From Ruminococcus sp. (GTDB lineage: Bacteria > Bacillota_A > Clostridia > Oscillospirales > Ruminococcaceae), in the NCBI GenBank assembly GCA_017480485.1, contig JAFVAN010000015.1, forward strand, positions 1 through 64,000: 64,000 nt of DNA, read 5' to 3'. Under the pieces are notes generated by a model. The model was not told the origin of the DNA and ran no database searches. It saw nothing but the letters and a program-made list of their open reading frames with translations. A program made the position numbers and the translations under genes. Shown piece after piece: positions 5,401 to 15,625 of the stretch (within the stretch, counting starts at the first letter, position 1; each line of letters begins with the position of its first letter).

Positions 5401-7203
5401 CTATTTTGTAAATATTGTGTGAACGTTCGAGCTTTCTCGGAGCTCGGGAGCGCCCGCCTCGCAGCCAAGAGCCAGCCCTCCGCCCTGTCCCGAGGCCATG
5501 AGCCGACCCAGCGGGGCCTCCACCTGCTCCCTTATTTTTGCTAGCAGCTCCAGAGGGCCGATGCAGGAGGAGGCCAGCTCCGCCGCGGCCTCGCTGCTCC
5601 ATGTGAGGGCGACCCCGCAGCCCTCCGCCTCCGCCCCAAGGGCCGTGAGCCGCCTTTCGCAGAGGGCAAGCAGCTCCTCGCCTTCAAGTGATTTGAGACT
5701 AAGGGAAAGGTCGGTGCAGCCCCGCAGCCATTCGGGAAAGGCCCGCCGGCCAGCACCGCCGCCGAAGCCGATGGCCCCCCGAGAGCCCGTTCTTGCGGTG
5801 AGCAGCACCACCGCCTGAGATAGCACTATCGGTGCGCCGCCGCAGTCCTCGGCCTCGCCGCGAAGCAGCCTTGTGACGAAGGCCTGCCGCTCGGGGTCGG
5901 CCCTGTGGGCGTTTTCCAGCACCACCACCGAGCAGGGCCGAGCCCGCAGCCTTTCGGGCAGGGAGCCGCAGGGCCGACCGTCGGGATGTCCCTCGAGGCG
6001 CAGCATCCCGCCCCAAGCGCCGCCCTGCGCAAGGTCGAGGCTTATGAGGGCTCCCCTGTCACTGAAAAGCGCCTCTGCAAGGGCGGCGCCCAGCAGGCTC
6101 TTGCCCGAGGCCTCGGGGCCGCCCACCAAGACGCTGAGCAGCGGCCTGTTTCCCGGGGGCGGCAGAGCACGGGCACCCGCCAGCGCCTGCGAGAGGGCAG
6201 AGACCGCCGCCTCCTGCCCAATGATGTGCCGCCCGAGGGCCTGCGAGAGCTCGCCGCACCGAAGCCGCAGCGCCCCGAGAGATGGCACACCCGCCATCCG
6301 CGCCGCAGCCTCCTCGCAGGAGGAGATGGAGAGCGTCGGCCTCTCGCGGGACGCCAGTCGCCCCAGATATTCCTCTCGGGTCAGCTCCCCTGAGAGATAC
6401 TCCCCGAAGGCCGCCTCGTCCCGCCCCTCGCGGCCGAGTCGCAGGCTCTCGGCGGCAAGGGCCTCGTCCAGCAGGTCAAGGGCCTTGTCGGGAAAGCGTC
6501 GGGTCCTGATATACCGCTCCGAGAGCTCCACTATCCGCTCGGCGGCCTCGTGGGGGACGGAGATGCCGTGATGCTCCTCGTAACGCTGCTTGACCCCCAG
6601 CAGCATGGAGAGGGCCTGCTGCTTTGTGGGCTCACGGACGGTGATGCTCTGGAAGCGGCGCTCCATGGCGCTGTCCCGCCCGATGCTGCGGCGCCACTCC
6701 TCGGGGGTGGTGGCGCCGATGACCTGCAGCTGGCCCCGGGCAAGCTTGGGTTTCAGGATATTTGCGGCGTCTATTGCGCCCTCGGCGGCGCCTGTACCCA
6801 TGATGCCGTGTATCTCGTCGATGAAGAGGATGGCCCCGCTGCGCTCGGCCTCCTCGATGCAGCCCTGCAAGCGCTCCTCGAAATCGCCGCGGTACTTGGC
6901 ACCGGAGAGCAGCTGGACAAGGTCAAGGGCAAAGACCCGCCGCCCGATAAGCTTTTCGGGGACGCTGCCCTCGCAGATGCGGCGGCACAGGCCCTCGACG
7001 ATGGCGCTCTTGCCCACCCCGGCCTCGCCCACAAGGCAGGGGTTGTTCTTCTCTCGGCGCAGCAGGACGGCAAGCACCCGGTCTAGCTCCTCCTGGCGGC
7101 CTATCAGGGGGTCGAAGCCCTCGCAGACGCGGCTGTCCGTCAGCTCTCTGCCGTAGCGCGAGAGCCGCCTGAACCGCCCGTTATCATAATAGCTGTCGTT
7201 AAT
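5401..7203 (-). CDS. Clp-type AAA+ ATPase lacking the N-domain, probable ATT start
   Basis: Resembles the tandem ATPase modules of ClpA/ClpB/ClpC. The segment GRELTDSRVCEGFDPLIGRQ matches the linker before D1. D1 has Walker A GEAGVGKS, Walker B ILFIDEIHG and the family motif RFPDKALDLLDEA. D2 has Walker A GGPEASGKS, but its Walker B reads VVVLENAH, with the Mg-binding Asp replaced by Leu. The usual Clp N-domain is absent (about 600 residues instead of 750-850). Homology extends upstream of the first standard start (GTG at 7077) to about 7190. The only start in frame before a stop is ATT at 7203, nine bases after GGAG. A sequencing error or decay of the 5' end is the alternative. Coding GC is very high. 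Confidence 0.75.
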   Translation of the reverse strand: MNDSYYDNGRFRRLSRYGRELTDSRVCEGFDPLIGRQEELDRVLAVLLRREKNNPCLVGEAGVGKSAIVEGLCRRICEGSVPEKLIGRRVFALDLVQLLSGAKYRGDFEERLQGCIEEAERSGAILFIDEIHGIMGTGAAEGAIDAANILKPKLARGQLQVIGATTPEEWRRSIGRDSAMERRFQSITVREPTKQQALSMLLGVKQRYEEHHGISVPHEAAERIVELSERYIRTRRFPDKALDLLDEALAAESLRLGREGRDEAAFGEYLSGELTREEYLGRLASRERPTLSISSCEEAAARMAGVPSLGALRLRCGELSQALGRHIIGQEAAVSALSQALAGARALPPPGNRPLLSVLVGGPEASGKSLLGAALAEALFSDRGALISLDLAQGGAWGGMLRLEGHPDGRPCGSLPERLRARPCSVVVLENAHRADPERQAFVTRLLRGEAEDCGGAPIVLSQAVVLLTARTGSRGAIGFGGGAGRRAFPEWLRGCTDLSLSLKSLEGEELLALCERRLTALGAEAEGCGVALTWSSEAAAELASSCIGPLELLAKIREQVEAPLGRLMASGQGGGLALGCEAGAPELRESSNVHTIFTK

Positions 7204-7336: not shown

Positions 7337-7378
7337 AAAAAAGGTATCCCACCCCGCAGGGGGTGGGATACCTTTTTT
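7337..7378. terminator. terminator of the membrane sigma operon
   Basis: A strong hairpin has a GGTATCCCACCCC arm, its complement, and A and T runs on either side. It lies between the end of the 940-residue sigma gene and the Clp-like gene. Confidence 0.8.
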
Positions 7379-7443: not shown

Positions 7444-10266
7444 TTACTTATAATCTTCGGGCTTAGGTACATAGTTGTAGTTGTTTATGGCTTCTTCCAT
7501 TTCTTCAAAGGATTGCAGTTCATCATAGAATTTAGTAAACCTTTTTGCCTTTGTATAACCTGCATCCTTTATGGTATAGGGATCGCCTCCCAATTCTTCG
7601 TCAATGGTAAACCCATTTTCATCGAGTACGACAGATAATGGATCATTTTTAAAACTCAGCACCTTTTTGTTTCCTTTTTCATCAATAGTGGGGCCCACGT
7701 TTATTCTATCATCGAATAAAACTACTGTTTTATTATCTCTTATCGCCATTATTCCGGCGGAGTAATTATCGGAGTAACTAAAATCATATATGCACAAAGG
7801 CTGGTCCTCATCTTCAAGCCATGCAAGATAGATTTGAATGTCATCTTCCGTGTCAGCGAAGTCCTTGCCATATTCTTCAAGAATTTTCTCTTCTATTATA
7901 TCAATATAACTCTGCTTCCAGCTCACCTCTGTCTCAGGCTCCTGCTGTTCCGGCTCTTCTTCCCCCTCAGTAACATACTCATAATTCATTATCGCTTCCT
8001 CCATTTCCGCAAGGGAGTGCAGGTCGGAAAGAGTCTCATAAACTACCGCTACCTTTGTATAGCCTGTTTCCTCCGAAAAATATGGGTCTATACTCTTGGG
8101 CTCATCCATCCAATCAAGGTCCTCGCGGCGGGTCAGTCCACTGTCATCGAGAATAAAATAAGAATAATCCCGTGTGGCGAAGCCATTATAATTTTCAAAT
8201 ATCAGCGCCGTTTCGTTTTCATTTTTCCAAACGTCGGGAATCACACGGGCCACGCTATCCTGTGCCAGCAGCACTTGGCCGTTATTTATCACCATAAAGC
8301 CTTCGCTGAAGACGGTAGGAGAGGCCATTCTTTGGCCGGGGGCTAAAACAGGGTCCTCGTAAAGCTCGAAATGGCACATAGGCAGGGCCTCACCTTCACG
8401 CCACATAATATTGATGCGCATTTTAAGTTCCGTGCCTTCAAAGTCCCCGCCGTAGTCTGCGGCAACGCAGTTTTTGATGGTCTCGATATAGGGCTGCTTC
8501 CAGCTTTCGTCCATTTTGGGCTTTTCAAGCTCCGTGGTGTCAACAATAGGCCGCAGGGTCTGTGGGTCGATATCGACATCGGCTATATAATTGTTGTTAA
8601 TGTCCTCAACACTTAGCGAGTAATCCATCAACCCATATAAATATGGATCCTCAACACTTCTTGCCTGAATTACTATTCTAAAAGGCGCTTCATATGTACC
8701 GTCATATTGATTGCCGGCATCATCCAAATACAAGCCATAGTACCAGTTTTCCTTCGGCTCGTCAACAGACATTGGATGTACATCTACCCTTCCTTCGGCA
8801 GGGAAAACAGCTATCCAGTTATTATCATGCACAAACAGGGCTTCACCGTTCTTAAAAAACTCAAAGGAAGAATAATATGCAGAGCCTTCTCCAAAAACTG
8901 AATCATCTATCACGCAGTAAATCTCGCTGTTCTCGGGTGCTGTGTTCTTGATAGGGGTCATGACGCGGGCGTCAATATCAAGCTCCGTAAGCAGCCAGCG
9001 GTCAGTATAATTGGGTGATGCGTCTTTGAGAAGGATATATCCGCGGCCTGCATCGGGGCTCTGCCAGCCATCATAGCTTACCTTACTAAAATCTATCTCA
9101 ATATCCTCGCCGTCAAGCTTGAGGATATACGGCTGCTCCTCGGGCTCCGCTGCGGGCTCGGCTGCGCTTTCGGGCTCTGTCTCTGCGGGCTGCACGTCCG
9201 CGTCGATGACAGTCTCGGAGTCGTCCGAGTGCTTCTCAACATACTTGTCGTGGGCGAGCTTTATGGCGGCTGCGGCGCCGCCTACCGCTACGGTCGCCGC
9301 AAGGATGATGGCGGCTATCTTAGCGCCCGAGGCCGTCGCGGCGGCTGTGACCGTGCTTGTTGCCGAGGCCGAGCCCGCGGTGATGGTGCTGGTGGAGGAT
9401 GCCCCTCCCGCTGTAACGGTGCTGGTAGAAGACGCCCCGCCCGCAGCCAAGCTGCTGGTGGCAGACGAGGCCCCCGCAGAAACGCTGCTGGTGGCAGAGG
9501 TGGTGGCAGCCGAGCCGCTCACCGACGAAACGCTTGTGGCCGTTGACGAAACAGCGCTCACCGCCGAGGTGCCGCCAAGCACCCCTGCGCCGAACAGGCC
9601 GCTGTTCACTTGGGTCATAAGCGAGGAGATAGGCACCGCGCTGAGGACAACGCCCTGCTTCTGCAAGGCCTCCAGCTTCTTTTTAAGGTTCTTGCGGGCG
9701 TTGAAGAGCCGCGCCTTAACGTTGTTTTGGTTGGTGCCTGTTAGCTCCGCGATCTCCGCCACGCTCTTGTTTTGGTAGTAGTAGAGCAGCAGCGCCTCCT
9801 TGTGCTCGTCGCTGAGGGAGCTTATCTGCTCTGCCAGCAGGCACTTGATGTCCTCGTTCTCGGCGTAGTCCGAGGGGAGCATGACGGTGTCGCCGTAGCT
9901 TTCCTCGTAGGCCTGCTCGATGGCTGCGGCCTCGCCGTCGATCTTTGAAAGGTCGCTGTCCATGCTGTCGGTGGTGTTGAAATCCGCCCGCTGCCAGCGG
10001 CCCATCTTCTGCCTAAAGGCGTTGGTCTTGTTGATGGCTATCTTGTGCAGCCAAGTGCCGAAGTATTCGTTGTTTTGCAGGTCCTTGATGTGGTTTATCA
10101 CCTCGAAGAAGGAGTCCGAGACGATGTCCTCGGCGTCCTGCTCGGGGATGCCCTGTTTCATGACGTACTTCATCAGCCTGTCCTTGTACTCAACGTACAG
10201 TCCCTCGATGGCTGTGGTGTCCCCGGCCTTTGCCCGGGCCACCAGATCGTTTGTGTTTTCTGCCAT
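7444..10266 (-). CDS. membrane-tethered ECF-type sigma factor with large extracytoplasmic domain
   Basis: A 940-residue fusion. Residues 17-90 are sigma-70 region 2 (LYVEYKDRL, QDAEDIVSDSF, TWLHKIAINK). Residues 145-200 are region 4, with a helix-turn-helix (SVAEIAELTGTNQNNVKARL). A Ser/Thr/Ala-rich linker (about 205-313) leads to one transmembrane helix (314-337). Outside lie an acidic spacer, a first domain (about 378-575) and two related modules (about 588-765 and 782-935), each starting WKQ.YI and ending with EMEEAI.NY. It presumably directs RNA polymerase while tethered or after release by cleavage. GGAGG supports the ATG. It is second in an operon, 43 bp after a paralogue. The ectodomain function is unknown. 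Confidence 0.9.
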   Translation of the reverse strand: MAENTNDLVARAKAGDTTAIEGLYVEYKDRLMKYVMKQGIPEQDAEDIVSDSFFEVINHIKDLQNNEYFGTWLHKIAINKTNAFRQKMGRWQRADFNTTDSMDSDLSKIDGEAAAIEQAYEESYGDTVMLPSDYAENEDIKCLLAEQISSLSDEHKEALLLYYYQNKSVAEIAELTGTNQNNVKARLFNARKNLKKKLEALQKQGVVLSAVPISSLMTQVNSGLFGAGVLGGTSAVSAVSSTATSVSSVSGSAATTSATSSVSAGASSATSSLAAGGASSTSTVTAGGASSTSTITAGSASATSTVTAAATASGAKIAAIILAATVAVGGAAAAIKLAHDKYVEKHSDDSETVIDADVQPAETEPESAAEPAAEPEEQPYILKLDGEDIEIDFSKVSYDGWQSPDAGRGYILLKDASPNYTDRWLLTELDIDARVMTPIKNTAPENSEIYCVIDDSVFGEGSAYYSSFEFFKNGEALFVHDNNWIAVFPAEGRVDVHPMSVDEPKENWYYGLYLDDAGNQYDGTYEAPFRIVIQARSVEDPYLYGLMDYSLSVEDINNNYIADVDIDPQTLRPIVDTTELEKPKMDESWKQPYIETIKNCVAADYGGDFEGTELKMRINIMWREGEALPMCHFELYEDPVLAPGQRMASPTVFSEGFMVINNGQVLLAQDSVARVIPDVWKNENETALIFENYNGFATRDYSYFILDDSGLTRREDLDWMDEPKSIDPYFSEETGYTKVAVVYETLSDLHSLAEMEEAIMNYEYVTEGEEEPEQQEPETEVSWKQSYIDIIEEKILEEYGKDFADTEDDIQIYLAWLEDEDQPLCIYDFSYSDNYSAGIMAIRDNKTVVLFDDRINVGPTIDEKGNKKVLSFKNDPLSVVLDENGFTIDEELGGDPYTIKDAGYTKAKRFTKFYDELQSFEEMEEAINNYNYVPKPEDYK

Positions 10267-10309
10267 TGTTCTTACCTCCGTGTATATGTGTTTTCGGATA
10301 TTTTGTTTT

Positions 10310-12142
10310 TTAGAATATGGGTCTCAGGGTCTCGGGGTCGATCTCGACAGTGCCGGAGAAAAGGACGGTGTTGTTTATCCGTTCGGCCTCTGCTTCATGC
10401 TCATCGAGCTCGTCATAGCTATAATAGTTTCCCGCATAGTCGCAAAAAGTGATATCAAAAGTATATCCGCCTTTATATTCAAAGCGAGTAATGTTTATGT
10501 TTTGTTCTCCCCATTCTTTTTCCGCATCAAAAGCCCAGCCGTTGTTCATCGGAAAATCCTTGAACCAATTTTCATCAGGGTAAGAAGTCATATCAAGCAG
10601 ATTATAGTAATAATGTACTTCGGGGGAATAATCTCCGTTTTCATCAATACCGCCGATTATCCAAGTGCCCAGATCACAATAAAACAATCTTCCGTCATCC
10701 AGTGCGATATAATCATATCTAAGCCCAAATCCGACTGTCGTATTATACTCCCAAGTATTGCCGCCATCAGTTGTCTGCACAACTGCTTTTGGAAATCCCG
10801 CATTGGCATGAGTGCGATCTGTATATTCAATCATTACATAGGCACAGCCATCGTCGTATACATTTGCTACCCCTTTTTCGCACAGATCACGGAAGCTCCA
10901 GCTCTTCCCTACCCATTCATCGTAGATCTCCATGGCATTAGGAATAACTGCGTTTACGACCACATTTTCATTTATTGTATTTAACAGCCGCTCGTGCTCC
11001 GAAACATCACAGGTCTTGAAGCTTATCGGCGCTATCACTTCTTCCTCGATAATGTTTGCGGGTCCGGCATCCTCTGTGGTGAGTTGAGTTGTTACAGCAG
11101 GCGGCTGTGTTGTCGCTGCCAGAGTTGTTGTCTGGGCGGCAGTCGTTGTTGCAGTCGCTTTGGTCGTGGTGGTCGTGGTAGTTTTTTTGGTCGTGGTCGT
11201 CACCGTCACGCTCTCCTCGGCGCTGTCGTCAACTATCTCGGGGACGGCGGTGGTTGTGGTCGTCGTTGTCATCACTGTGGTAACGACCTCGCTGCTGCCG
11301 TCGTCGGGGCGGGTGTCGCCCTGTATGCGGTCGAGCCTTGTAAGGCCGAAGCCCAGACCCACCACCACAGCTGCCACAACTGCAACTGCGGCTATCTTAG
11401 CCCCGGAGGAGGATGCAACTGCGGCGCCCTCGGTGGAAGCGGCAGCGGCCTCGCCAGCGGTGGCTGCGGCTGCGGCGTCCTTGCCGCCCTCGTCCAGCTC
11501 TGCCAGCAGGCCGGAGATAGGCACTGCGCAGAGAGTGACGCCCTTTTTCTGCAATGCCTCAACCTTCTTTTTAAGGCTCTGGCGGGCCTTGAAGAGCCGC
11601 ACCTTGGCGTTGTTCTGGGTTATCCCGCAGAGCTCCGCCATCTCGGCGATGCTCTTGTTTTCGTAGTAGAACAGCACCAGGGCCTCCTTATGGTCCTGGC
11701 TCAGGGAGTCCAGCTGCTCTGCCAGCAGGCGCTTTACGTCCTCGTTCTCGGCGTAGTCCGAGGGGAGCATGACGGTGTCGCCGCGGCTTGCCTCATAGGC
11801 AAGCTCAACGGCTGCCATATCCCCCCCGAGGCCCGATTCCTCGTCCTCCTCGAAGATGACCCGCTGGTGAGCGCCTGATTTTTTCTTTAATTCTCCCGTC
11901 TTGCGCAGGGCTATCCTGTGTATCCAAGTGCCAAAGAACTCATCGTTCTGCAGGTCGCCGATATGCTTCATTACCTCCACGAAGGTGTCCGAGACCACGT
12001 CCTCGGCGTCCTGACTGCTCAGCCCCTGCTTGATGATAAATTTATACAGCTTGTCCTTATATTCAACATAGAGCTTGTCCATGGCGGCGCTGTCGCCCTT
12101 CTTGGCTCGGGCCACCAGCTCCTCGATGCTTCTGTCACTCAT
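10310..12142 (-). CDS. membrane-tethered ECF-type sigma factor, paralogue with Thr-rich stalk
   Basis: A 610-residue protein. Sigma region 2 is at about 19-90 and region 4 at about 145-197. They are close to those of the downstream paralogue, including the shared segment GDTVMLPSDYAENED and the post-region-4 motif AVPISGLL. A transmembrane helix (247-270) follows an Ala-rich linker. A stalk dominated by threonine (287-357) carries an ectodomain with one Asp-box-like motif TTDGGNTW (about 457-464). The protein ends VEIDPETLRPIF; the paralogue's first ectodomain ends with the similar VDIDPQTLRPIV. The ATG at 12142 has GGAGG upstream and overlaps the stop of a 36-residue ORF by 8 bases. No separate anti-sigma gene is nearby. 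Confidence 0.9.
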   Translation of the reverse strand: MSDRSIEELVARAKKGDSAAMDKLYVEYKDKLYKFIIKQGLSSQDAEDVVSDTFVEVMKHIGDLQNDEFFGTWIHRIALRKTGELKKKSGAHQRVIFEEDEESGLGGDMAAVELAYEASRGDTVMLPSDYAENEDVKRLLAEQLDSLSQDHKEALVLFYYENKSIAEMAELCGITQNNAKVRLFKARQSLKKKVEALQKKGVTLCAVPISGLLAELDEGGKDAAAAATAGEAAAASTEGAAVASSSGAKIAAVAVVAAVVVGLGFGLTRLDRIQGDTRPDDGSSEVVTTVMTTTTTTTAVPEIVDDSAEESVTVTTTTKKTTTTTTTKATATTTAAQTTTLAATTQPPAVTTQLTTEDAGPANIIEEEVIAPISFKTCDVSEHERLLNTINENVVVNAVIPNAMEIYDEWVGKSWSFRDLCEKGVANVYDDGCAYVMIEYTDRTHANAGFPKAVVQTTDGGNTWEYNTTVGFGLRYDYIALDDGRLFYCDLGTWIIGGIDENGDYSPEVHYYYNLLDMTSYPDENWFKDFPMNNGWAFDAEKEWGEQNINITRFEYKGGYTFDITFCDYAGNYYSYDELDEHEAEAERINNTVLFSGTVEIDPETLRPIF

Positions 12143-12245
12143 TTTCTTCTCCTCCGTCGATATCGTATTTTTCGAGGATGTCGTCAAGCATCCCCTGCTC
12201 GGCCATGTATTCAAGTACCACAACGATCAGCTCGTCAAAGGTCAT
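12135..12245 (-). CDS. 36-residue acidic leader ORF coupled to the sigma operon
   Basis: An ATG (12245) opens a 36-codon frame that is helix-prone and acidic (MTFDELIVVVLEYMAEQG at the N-terminus, GGEENE at the end). Its TGA lies inside codons 2-3 of the next sigma gene, so translation is likely coupled. It sits about 30 bases after a strong promoter. Its Shine-Dalgarno (GGGGGCGGGG) is poor. It could be a short regulatory peptide or a coupling leader. I recognise no family. Confidence 0.5.
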   Translation of the reverse strand: MTFDELIVVVLEYMAEQGMLDDILEKYDIDGGEENE

Positions 12246-12282: not shown

Positions 12283-12311
12283 ATTATACCATCTCTCCTT
12301 CGTTCTTGCAA
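12283..12311 (-). promoter_or_regulatory. promoter of the membrane sigma operon
   Basis: On the minus strand: TTGCAA, 17-bp spacer, TATAAT, with TG just before the -10. Transcription should start near 12276. Confidence 0.75.
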
Positions 12312-12320
12312 GGGTCAGTT

Positions 12321-12488
12321 TCCCCCTCTGTTTATTAGAGTCCTAGCGCGGACGGCGCAATGCCGCCTTTGGGTAAATTTGTTCAGGTCCCAGGCTTTGT
12401 GTGACGGCGGGCCGCAGCTTGGTGTGGGCTAAAGGTATTGCCAGGTTCGTTTTATACCAAGCAATTTTCCCCCTCTGTTTATTAGAGT
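12321..12488. repeat. 126-bp repeat (family G) flanked by 23-bp direct repeats
   Basis: An identical 23-base sequence (core CCCCCTCTGTTTATTAGAG) occurs ending at 12341 and at 12488. Between them lies a roughly 90-bp sequence that recurs in inverse orientation at 54.72-54.81 kb. In both places it stands directly upstream of a promoter. The whole 12312-12623 gap holds only this repeat and the leader of the next small gene. Confidence 0.7.
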
Positions 12489-12623
12489 GTGCGAGGGGCC
12501 GAAAGGTTAACGCTTTTTTGAAATTCTGACCTCTATGTAACACTTTCCCGCCCCCGGCATAGAATGTAATATAAGCGCAGGCAAGGGCGCTTAGAAAAAT
12601 CTATATCCAAAAGGAGAATAGCT

Positions 12624-12746
12624 ATGTATAATAACAACTACTGGTGGATCATCATCCTCATCCTCATCGTTGTAGTATTCGGCGGCTGTGGCTGCGGCTG
12701 CAACGACAACTGTGGCTGCAACAACTGTGGCTGCGGCTGCAACTGA
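12624..12746 (+). CDS. 40-residue membrane-anchored cysteine-rich microprotein
   Basis: ATG at 12624 follows AAGGAG by 7 bases. The peptide starts MYNNNYWW, continues with about 11 Ile/Leu/Val residues forming a short membrane segment, and ends in a Gly/Asn/Cys tail with eight cysteines in C-G-C and C-N-N-C spacing. No further coding follows. Small hydrophobic Gly-rich peptides of the YjcZ kind occur in spore formers, but the cysteine tail differs. It may bind metal or form a cross-linked layer; this is speculation. It could also be chance, but the strong ribosome site and the regular codons argue for a gene. Confidence 0.65.
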   Translation: MYNNNYWWIIILILIVVVFGGCGCGCNDNCGCNNCGCGCN

Positions 12747-13891: not shown

Positions 13892-15625
13892 ATGATGAAA
13901 AGAATGACCGCCCTTTGTGCGGCGGCGCTCATGACCCTGTCGCTTGCCTCCTGCGGCAGCAGTGACAGCTCGGCCACTGCCTCGGAGGGCAGCGAGGCCA
14001 TAAAGGCCGTGACCCTCTACGACGACGAGCGCCATCCCGTTGAGACTCAGCCGGTTACCGAGTCCATCGGGGATCTGGACCTTTCCGAGGTGCAGAACGA
14101 GCAGAACGTCTCCCCTGACTTTAAGCTTGAGATCGAGGCCGAGACTGCGGAGCTGGAGGCTGCGGCGGTGCTTAACACCACCTCTCAGGGCGACTTCACA
14201 GGCGAGGGCTTTGTGATGCTGCCCAAGGCCGATTCCTACATGGAGCTCAGCTTCGAGCTTGACCAGACCGGAAACTATGACGTTATCATCGTGGCCGCAG
14301 GCGACAGCTCAAGCGGCGGCTCGGGCTCTTTGGAGCTGGATGGCGAGGCCCTGCCGAATTACACCATAAAGACTAACAAGTTCTCCGCCTCAACCCTTGC
14401 CAACGTGGTTCTGCCCGAGGGAAAGCACACCTTCAAGTTCAATGGCGGCGAGACAAAGCTCTGCATTGACAGTGTGACCGTCACCGCGGCAGGCACAGTT
14501 GACCTGGAGCAGTTCAAGGTGGACAGGGCCCTCATCAACCCCGACGCCTCCGAGGAGACCAAGCGGCTTTATAACTTCCTCTGCGACACCTACGGAAAAT
14601 ACACCCTCTCGGGCCAGTATTCCAGCGACAACATGGGCCCCTCCTGTGCCGAGTTCTACAAGATCAATGAGGAGACCGGCAAGACTCCCGCAGTGCTGGG
14701 TCTGGATTTCATCGAGCTCTCCCAGTCTCGAGTGGAGTGCAGCATAAACCGCGAGGCCTACGACTCTGACGAGGCCTATCAGGCAGCGGTAAGAGAAGAG
14801 ACCGACAAGCGAGCCAAGGTGCTCATAGATCAGGCCGAGGACTGGGTGCTGAATCAGGGAGGCATCGTGACCTTCTGCTGGCACTGGAACGCTCCCACGG
14901 ATTACCTTGACCAGAGCGAGTGGTGGAAGGGCTTCTACTCCGCCAACACCACCTTCAGCCTGTCAAAGGCCCTCAAGCAGGAGGACCAGGCAGGCTACGA
15001 CTACCTCATCAGGGACATCGACTCTCTGGCCCGCTACCTGAAGGTGCTGGACGACAACCACGTTCCGATACTTTGGAGGCCCCTGCACGAGGGCGGCGGC
15101 GATCCAAAGTGGCACAACCCTTGGTTCTGGTGGGGCTCCTCCGGCAGCGGTGCTTACATCGAGCTTTGGAAGCTCCTCTATGACCGCCTCACAAACTACC
15201 ACCACATCAACAACCTTATCTGGATATGGAACGGTCAGGACCCCGACTACTACGTCGGAGACGACTACTGTGACATCGTGGGCTACGACATCTATCCCGA
15301 GGGCGGCGACACCTCGTCCCAGAAGCCCATCTACGACATGATGAGAGAGACCATCGGCGAGAACAAGATAATCGCCCTCACCGAGAACGGTGTCATCCCC
15401 GACCCCGACGCCACCTTTGCTGACGGCTCACGCTGGAGCTGGTTCGCCACCTGGAACGGAGAATTCTGCATCAACGGCGACTTCGAGCTCAACAGCGATT
15501 ACACGCCCCTGGAGACTTGGGTAAAGATCTACAACAGCGACCGCGTGCTTACCCTTGACGAGCTGCCAGACCTCAAGAGCTACCCCCTTGACACCGAGGC
15601 CTTCCTCGCGGGCAATGCAAGCTGA
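13892..15625 (+). CDS. GH26 beta-mannanase lipoprotein with CBM35-like domain
   Basis: Secreted lipoprotein of 577 residues with lipobox LASC near residue 21, so it is cell-surface anchored. An acidic linker is followed by a beta-sandwich (about 85-200; YMELSFELDQTGNYDVII, HTFKFNGG), like family 35/6 carbohydrate-binding modules. The catalytic GH26 domain (about 220-560) carries FCWHWNAP, the acid/base motif WRPLHE, FWWG, and the nucleophile motif ALTENG. It should cleave beta-1,4-mannan outside the cell. Product uptake and phosphorolysis would fit the GH130 enzyme at 36.7 kb. AAGGAG precedes the start; ATG at 13895 is an equal choice. Confidence 0.92.
   Translation: MMKRMTALCAAALMTLSLASCGSSDSSATASEGSEAIKAVTLYDDERHPVETQPVTESIGDLDLSEVQNEQNVSPDFKLEIEAETAELEAAAVLNTTSQGDFTGEGFVMLPKADSYMELSFELDQTGNYDVIIVAAGDSSSGGSGSLELDGEALPNYTIKTNKFSASTLANVVLPEGKHTFKFNGGETKLCIDSVTVTAAGTVDLEQFKVDRALINPDASEETKRLYNFLCDTYGKYTLSGQYSSDNMGPSCAEFYKINEETGKTPAVLGLDFIELSQSRVECSINREAYDSDEAYQAAVREETDKRAKVLIDQAEDWVLNQGGIVTFCWHWNAPTDYLDQSEWWKGFYSANTTFSLSKALKQEDQAGYDYLIRDIDSLARYLKVLDDNHVPILWRPLHEGGGDPKWHNPWFWWGSSGSGAYIELWKLLYDRLTNYHHINNLIWIWNGQDPDYYVGDDYCDIVGYDIYPEGGDTSSQKPIYDMMRETIGENKIIALTENGVIPDPDATFADGSRWSWFATWNGEFCINGDFELNSDYTPLETWVKIYNSDRVLTLDELPDLKSYPLDTEAFLAGNAS

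Follow-up and report, generated by a model that had tools for sequence, protein, structure and literature searches.

A stretch of 64,000 nucleotides from Ruminococcus sp. (assembly GCA_017480485.1, contig JAFVAN010000015.1, positions 1 to 64,000), referred to here as the window, carries two sigma factor genes in tandem on its minus strand, head to tail with 43 bases between them. The lead gene, named gene B (10310..12142, ATG at 12142), encodes 610 amino acids in the order sigma region 2, sigma region 4, a predicted transmembrane helix, a serine/threonine-rich linker and an ectodomain. The second, gene A (7444..10266), encodes 940 amino acids with sigma regions 2 and 4, a linker rich in alanine, serine and threonine, a predicted helix and an ectodomain of three modules. 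A micro open reading frame (micro-ORF; 12135..12245, minus strand) of 36 amino acids with a net charge of -11 runs 8 nt into the start of gene B (ATGAGTGA). We consider it probable, at about 0.6, that B and A are autoregulated, one-piece, membrane-anchored extracytoplasmic function (ECF) sigma factors that sense the state of the envelope and have a co-translated microprotein as partner. This proposal was built on the computed domains, the helix prediction, the conservation of the architecture, coding selection on the micro-ORF, and the conservation and enrichment of a promoter.

Fused sigma factors with a predicted membrane helix

The sigma parts of both proteins were identified by Pfam. Region 2 was mapped at 11888..12085 in gene B (about residues 20-85) and at 10012..10209 in gene A, and region 4 at 11549..11731 (about residues 138-198) and 9673..9855, respectively, all on the minus strand. 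The Sigma70_r2 and r4_2 families matched B with 1.4e-8 and 1.5e-11 and A with 1.2e-7 and 4.6e-12, and the ECF superfamily model TIGR02937 gave 82 bits for A and 86 bits for B against a cut-off of 42.9; with regions 2 and 4 above curated cut-offs, both proteins were classified as ECF sigma factors. The structure models showed the ECF sigma fold, as E. coli sigmaE was the best Foldseek match for both, AlgU and SigW were also among the top matches, and the best single-domain alignments of the A sigma2 were at 2-3 Å; confidence in the B model was limited to its sigma part. The sigma parts of A and B are identical at 130 of 205 aligned residues, and the chains continue beyond them for about 400 residues in B and about 740 in A. 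Each protein has a single hydrophobic peak (Kyte-Doolittle 2.48 at residue 250 in B and 2.36 at residue 317 in A), and no second window of 1.6 or more was found elsewhere in either chain on this scale. The helices predicted by hydropathy lie on the minus strand at 11333..11401 in gene B (residues 248-270, of low confidence in the structure model) and at 9256..9324 in gene A (residues 315-337, where a helix at 318-339 was modelled at low confidence). An earlier, sequence-only reading of this region had described two adjacent genes, each encoding both sigma regions, a single transmembrane helix and an extensive outside part, and this description was confirmed by Pfam and hydropathy.

The outside part of B (10313..11008, minus strand, about residues 379-610) has a threonine-rich linker before it and no Pfam family. 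That of A comprises, on the same strand, module 1 (8533..9135, residues 378-578), modelled with a block pLDDT mostly of 70-90 and a few blocks lower, module 2 (7957..8526, about residues 581-770) and module 3 (7450..7941), which repeats module 2 with 60 of 162 residues identical and a score of 232, where the highest of 200 shuffles reached 52. No Pfam family above the cut-off was obtained for the outside part of either protein, and no carbohydrate-binding family was matched in A or B. The Asp-box and the repeated modules that had been noticed earlier in the two ectodomains were both recovered, the first as an Asp-box-like TTDGGNTW in B (10751..10774, minus strand, residues 457-464) and the second as the two module copies in A. 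A sialidase/BNR propeller would need several such motifs; B has one and A none, and the B ectodomain was modelled without confidence. When the A ectodomain was used as a query, only two sigma proteins were matched among 7995 candidates scored. It could not be assigned to a known fold, as Foldseek returned only weak beta-rich matches whose TM-scores did not exceed 0.2, in a comparison that barely tested the ectodomain parts; the lipoprotein XusB (7.9e-4) and the heparin sensor BT4663 (1.1e-3) were among them.

The B ectodomain group is homologous to a predicted lipoprotein of 327 amino acids encoded at a related locus, L075 (blastp 1e-4; hhalign probability 97%, E 1.5e-11). The group of A module 1 is related to the B group (72%) and to this lipoprotein (81%) more weakly than B is to the lipoprotein, and a search with the lipoprotein matched solely its own near-identical entry. 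Because the B ectodomain is homologous to a predicted lipoprotein that is encoded near a related sigma gene with the same promoter type, the extracytoplasmic placement that we infer for the cell is supported.

The sigma-to-helix region of B was used to search for relatives, and 25 homologues of the fused architecture with 355-929 amino acids were recovered at E 1e-10 or better among 7994 candidates scored; the search admitted only 0.55-1.75 times the 610-residue query length, so that short unfused sigmas could not appear. The arrangement of sensor and sigma factor in one piece, as had been supposed earlier, was kept in these relatives, and their outside domains differ, with PF13306 leucine-rich repeats in P0018 and P0023 and calcium-loop-like DxNGDGxPE stretches (by eye) in some homologues. 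P0005, whose covered part is 71% identical to B, and P0010 are both reported from one 25354-base contig, so that a recurrence of the tandem pair is probable. The related locus L001 lies on a contig of uncultured Clostridia, and its genome gave 6 matches at 1e-10. Across 297 genomes of the family of L001, a match at 1e-25 was present in 13, with at least 30 matches in all (best 8 candidates per genome scored), and 5 of 294 other genomes of the order hold weaker sigma relatives; the search for plasmid-borne relatives gave no match. The set used below has 31 distinct related loci, drawn from the L001 genome and the 297 genomes together with L001 itself, L001 and L005 being one place. Of 32 related loci, 30 have a 19-residue hydropathy window of 1.76 or more within residues 190 to 560, and contig ends cut the remaining two.

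Pfam matched no anti-sigma domain in A or B, and neither a zinc-finger between sigma4 and the helix nor a fused iron-signalling-type anti-sigma was matched at E up to 1. In B and its nearest relatives sigma4 and the helix are about 50 residues apart, a distance short for a classical anti-sigma domain, and because no anti-sigma domain is matched in this stretch B is not an obvious sigma/anti-sigma fusion like the known proteins of ECF52 or IutY. Nine ORFs of the neighbourhood were also examined by Pfam, small ORFs not being scanned there, and no anti-sigma was found; seven matched families and the other two, without a match, may be spurious. The earlier statement that no anti-sigma gene is nearby had overlooked the overlapping micro-ORF. 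The G.xLCAVP segment conserved after sigma4 and the micro-ORF are candidate control elements besides tethering. One-component regulators of the CadC/ToxR type work from the membrane without proteolysis, and the sigma factor might similarly be active while attached, through dimerisation or a conformational change of the ectodomain. In A and several relatives sigma4 is joined to the helix by a long and flexible A/S/T-rich linker that would suit such activity, as would the result that no protease or autoproteolysis family was matched by Pfam in A or B, but the linker of about 50 residues in B and its nearest relatives leaves the holoenzyme little reach to DNA, and the studied case of a fused sigma, IutY, undergoes cleavage by Prc and RseP in the account given in PMC8999054. 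We regard activity from the membrane as unlikely.

A micro-ORF ahead of the sigma gene

The extent originally proposed for the pair, 7444..12245, does contain both genes, but position 12245 is the ATG of the micro-ORF, which is a separate ORF in another frame. Of the 31 distinct loci, 23 have a small ORF ahead of the sigma gene; two of these (L006 and L012) were added by eye to the first 21 and then translated. Stop and start overlap by 4 to 17 nt at 19 of these 23 loci; the overlap is longer at L004, L006 and L012, and at L010 the stop lies 5 nt before the sigma gene without overlap. Type 1 members follow roughly the pattern MT[FL][DE]E...YM..QG..DD...KY, and type 2 members are longer and keep T.DE.I near the start; the resemblance of the L030 member is weak. 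When differences were counted by codon position, 7 type-1 members gave 191/101/316 and 10 type-2 members, aligned from their starts without gaps, gave 880/616/1048; 0 of 20000 and 0 of 10000 column shuffles, respectively, were as extreme, in a test that ignores sequence relatedness. This excess of third-position changes indicates selection on the amino acids of the micro-ORF.

A profile of 19 micro-ORFs gave 23 matches in 10 of the 297 genomes, most of which were expected because 18 of the profile rows come from those genomes. No match in the 297 genomes was apart from a sigma gene: 21 were at known loci, one was an intact-looking micro-ORF that overlaps a truncated sigma remnant of about 60 codons (L042:1490-1798), and one (L052) sits directly after the sigma gene of L020. 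Besides the window member, charges were counted for 20 products, of which 19 are acidic (-2 to -10) and that of L004 is basic (+8). Among the 19 sequences no convincing Pfam or NCBIfam match was found (best E 0.0044 and 0.0047, each in one member), and none resembled an anti-sigma family in these databases. A programmed frameshift joining the micro-ORF to sigma was rejected because the micro-ORF occupies two different frames relative to sigma (one in 20 of 24 cases and the other in 4, the window included). Mimicry of the sigma N-terminus was likewise set aside, since 9 of 9 alignments were not clearly above shuffles (p 0.05 to 0.9). A predicted hairpin covers the ribosome site of the micro-ORF at L011, L013 and L023 (z -8.3, -4.7 and -9.4), a possible translational gate; folding of the same region at L015 and L026 was not clearly better than in shuffles.

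These features were also weighed under two other explanations. The product might be the real inhibitor, as a minimal anti-sigma, or a co-sigma subunit, with the membrane domain mainly localising the sigma factor. The adjoining or overlapping position at 23 of 31 loci, the coding selection, the confinement of profile matches to sigma genes and the acidity of the window member and of nearly all others are what a dedicated regulator would show; its absence at 8 of 31 loci and ahead of gene A, the second of the pair, the basic member of L004, the lack of likeness to known anti-sigma families in the searches above and the equal possibility of an action in cis through translational coupling make this explanation doubtful. 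Alternatively, the micro-ORF might be a mere leader, the translation of which would control that of sigma while its peptide would be functionless. The stop/start overlap at most loci and the hairpins in three type-2 relatives fit a leader, but the third-position excess indicates that the amino acids matter, and we hold a leader alone to be quite unlikely.

Promoters and the predicted regulon

An exact match to AACCTTT-N14-CTCTAA was found upstream of the operon (12482..12508, minus strand); no other site with two or fewer mismatches occurs in the window, where 0.96 would be expected by chance at that looseness. The motif is similar to ECF promoters of the SigW/sigmaE type. The exact motif with the same spacing lies upstream of L002, L009 and L010, and a CACTAA variant at L003. 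The strict motif occurs 53 times in the 297 genomes. The four genomes that have the closest sigma relatives account for 12 of these sites (5, 4, 1 and 2) and the other 293 for 41, and the reversed pattern occurs once in those four genomes and about 120 times in the others (hand count). Three of the 12 sites had defined the motif; the other nine, which are independent of its definition, are enriched in the four genomes. A looser form, TAACC-N16-18-[CG][AT]CTAA, drawn up after inspecting the regions concerned, was present in 8 of 30 upstream regions, some of them near-identical, and in 0 of 117 downstream windows; its upstream sites number 11, where shuffles gave a mean of 0.02. In the window, the -10 and start region of the ECF-type promoter falls within a direct repeat, CTCTAATAAACAGAGGG (12471..12487, minus strand), and the second copy (12324..12340, minus strand) has no AACCTTT at the matching -35 distance; the repeat has 3 matches at up to three mismatches, 2 of them exact, where 0.12 were expected. 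A sigmaA-type promoter, TTGCAA-N17-TATAAT, lies at 12283..12311 on the same strand (10/12, with TG before the -10). The sigmaA-type scan gave 9 sites against 5.6 in shuffles and is weak alone; similar hexamers were seen by eye at L001, L002, L003, L008 and L009. Repeated promoter-like units were also seen at other loci, with five tandem units (TAACC...GTCTAA) ahead of a tethered sigma gene at L086:9416-9680 (minus strand), two copies of a related form ahead of sigma at L085, and, at L069:5716-6050 (plus strand), one strict motif followed by four repeats of another unit (GTGCAGTTTTTT...ATCTAAGTxACAGAGAG), perhaps for a second sigma.

The genes behind the nine independent sites were then considered. 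By eye, three sites precede genes for a secreted protein, a lipoprotein and a zinc-ribbon membrane protein (one each), and four lie in pairs before two membrane-protein genes located ahead of a sigma gene; behind the L069 site a predicted membrane protein gene begins only 550 nt further on, beyond the four repeats, and the L070 site has no clear gene behind it. None of the tested products encoded behind the motif had a Pfam family above the cut-off. At L075 two promoter motifs, a membrane protein, two lipoproteins, a promoter motif, the micro-ORF and sigma form one row in the same direction. A predicted lipoprotein gene directly follows sigma at L077, L082, L083, L084, L087 and L088 among the 16 sigma regions fetched, some others of which end at a contig end. 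ABC transporter genes lie further on at L082, L083, L084 and L087, and at L084 the ATPase was confirmed by Pfam and three other products had no family above the cut-off. At L088:579-5955 (minus strand), five consecutive genes for proteins of 336-379 amino acids with lipoprotein-like starts follow the tethered sigma gene. The companion genes together suggest sensing of envelope state.

Polysaccharides had been named earlier as the possible signal of the pair. A gene for a lipoprotein-like GH26 protein with a CBM35 match (below cut-off) lies upstream of the operon on the opposite strand (13892-15625, plus strand), adjoining a family 2 glycosyltransferase gene, and a GH5 gene lies beside L001; both would be in keeping with a polysaccharide-sensing pair like SigI and RsgI in the control of cellulosome genes. 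SigI does not belong to the ECF sigma factors. The motif in the window is found upstream of B only and not upstream of GH26, neither A nor B has a carbohydrate-binding family, and the genes linked to the motif or following sigma elsewhere encode mostly predicted lipoproteins, membrane or secreted proteins without a known family and some ABC transporters; the suggestion was therefore not upheld and such a pair is improbable. Among the other features of the window, a Clp-like AAA ATPase gene with the orientation of the sigma pair lies downstream of it (5401-7077, minus strand), a terminator-like hairpin follows gene A (7348..7367; weak, with 13 such hairpins found against 6.5 in shuffles), and a very small ORF (40 codons) at 12624-12746 on the plus strand, as read by eye, begins with a hydrophobic stretch and is rich in Cys-Gly pairs.

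Proposed mechanism and known systems

In the mechanism that we propose, the N-terminal sigma domain would be cytoplasmic, the single helix would span the membrane and the C-terminal domain would sense envelope or outside conditions, presumably through a ligand. At rest the sigma factor would be retained at the membrane, and a signal at the ectodomain would free or activate it, most likely by cleavage near the helix, a proteolytic release that is suggested by analogy with IutY and RsgI. The active sigma factor would take RNA polymerase to AACCTTT-N14-CTCTAA promoters, its own included, giving positive feedback over a basal sigmaA promoter, and its regulon would include lipoprotein and membrane protein genes. 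The conserved microprotein, translated just ahead of the lead sigma gene, probably sets the level or activity of sigma, and the two tandem sigmas probably channel two sensors into one regulon.

Several observations weigh against this mechanism, which is computational and predicted throughout. The charges after the helix are positive (RLDR; KLAHDKYVEK), so that the positive-inside rule gives the topology no support; the hydropathy is inflated by alanine-rich segments, one relative peaking at only 1.76; and no protease or cleavage site was identified. As the ECF motif was derived from sigma upstream regions, its presence there is circular, and the relaxed form is absent from 22 of 30 such regions. 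Lipoprotein genes directly after sigma are confined to 6 of 16 regions and none follows the window pair. The micro-ORF is missing at L003, L016-L020, L027 and L028, even in a scan that admitted stops as far as 200 nt into the sigma gene, and L003 lacks it though it is a close relative with its own ECF-type promoter; L027 and L028 are each preceded, on their own strand, by two lipoprotein genes and a further tethered sigma gene. The micro-ORF profile found nothing at 1e-4 in the 294 other genomes of the order, and because 5 of these hold weaker sigma relatives, the micro-ORF is not essential to the architecture.

One-piece sigmas with membrane parts are known from ECF48, ECF52, ECF53, some ECF36 and IutY, as listed in PMC8999054. 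The family of A and B may be ECF262 (representative SFB89493.1, Ruminococcus albus; Casas-Pastor et al, 2021), going by a tabulated description; Table 2 of PMC8999054 gives ECF262 a regulatory extension of type "Others", without an anti-sigma and with no mechanism. An extension without a separate anti-sigma among the nine neighbouring ORFs was found for A and B as well, and the host lineage is plausible. SCO4117 of Streptomyces coelicolor (ECF52) also has sigma, transmembrane region and outside domain in one chain and a putative autoregulatory promoter motif, but ECF52 is limited to Actinobacteria and has its own zinc-finger and carbohydrate-binding module, neither of which was matched in A or B, and the description of ECF52 in PMC5826349 mentions no overlapping micro-ORF in the parts that bear on it. 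IutY of Pseudomonas putida (ECF243) is a sigma fused to a membrane-spanning regulator and, by the accounts in PMC8999054 and PMC7593790, is released by Prc and RseP, whereas its fused part is an anti-sigma of iron cell-surface signalling of which A and B show no counterpart. RsgI of Clostridium thermocellum is a membrane protein with an outside sensor that RseP cuts in the helix, as outlined in PMC12203970, but SigI and RsgI are two proteins, and A and B match ECF models with no separate anti-sigma among the nine neighbouring ORFs. Our literature search, thin for subscription papers and the ECF classification paper, gave no description of this protein type, the micro-ORF or the promoter; the fused sigma and membrane architecture is thus of a known kind, and the micro-ORF and promoter are without report in the literature searched. 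It is tentatively possible that the system forms a distinct unit, in which a transmembrane sigma is set by a co-translated microprotein found only beside such sigma genes or their remnants in the searched genomes, and the regulon makes free lipoprotein copies of its own sensor for decoy or co-receptor feedback.

With sigma, anchor and sensor in one chain and no recognisable anti-sigma domain, the locus raises the question of how tethering alone silences a sigma factor, and the predicted promoter and overlapping microprotein make this question testable by reporter. In PMC8999054, 15 ECF groups with extensions are counted as remaining to be studied; if the family is ECF262, the locus yields concrete predictions for one such little-studied extension group, and the predicted regulon is a route to finding the signal. 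The two fused sigmas and the conserved overlapping tiny gene together suggest a compact, little-studied way to carry outside signals to genes.

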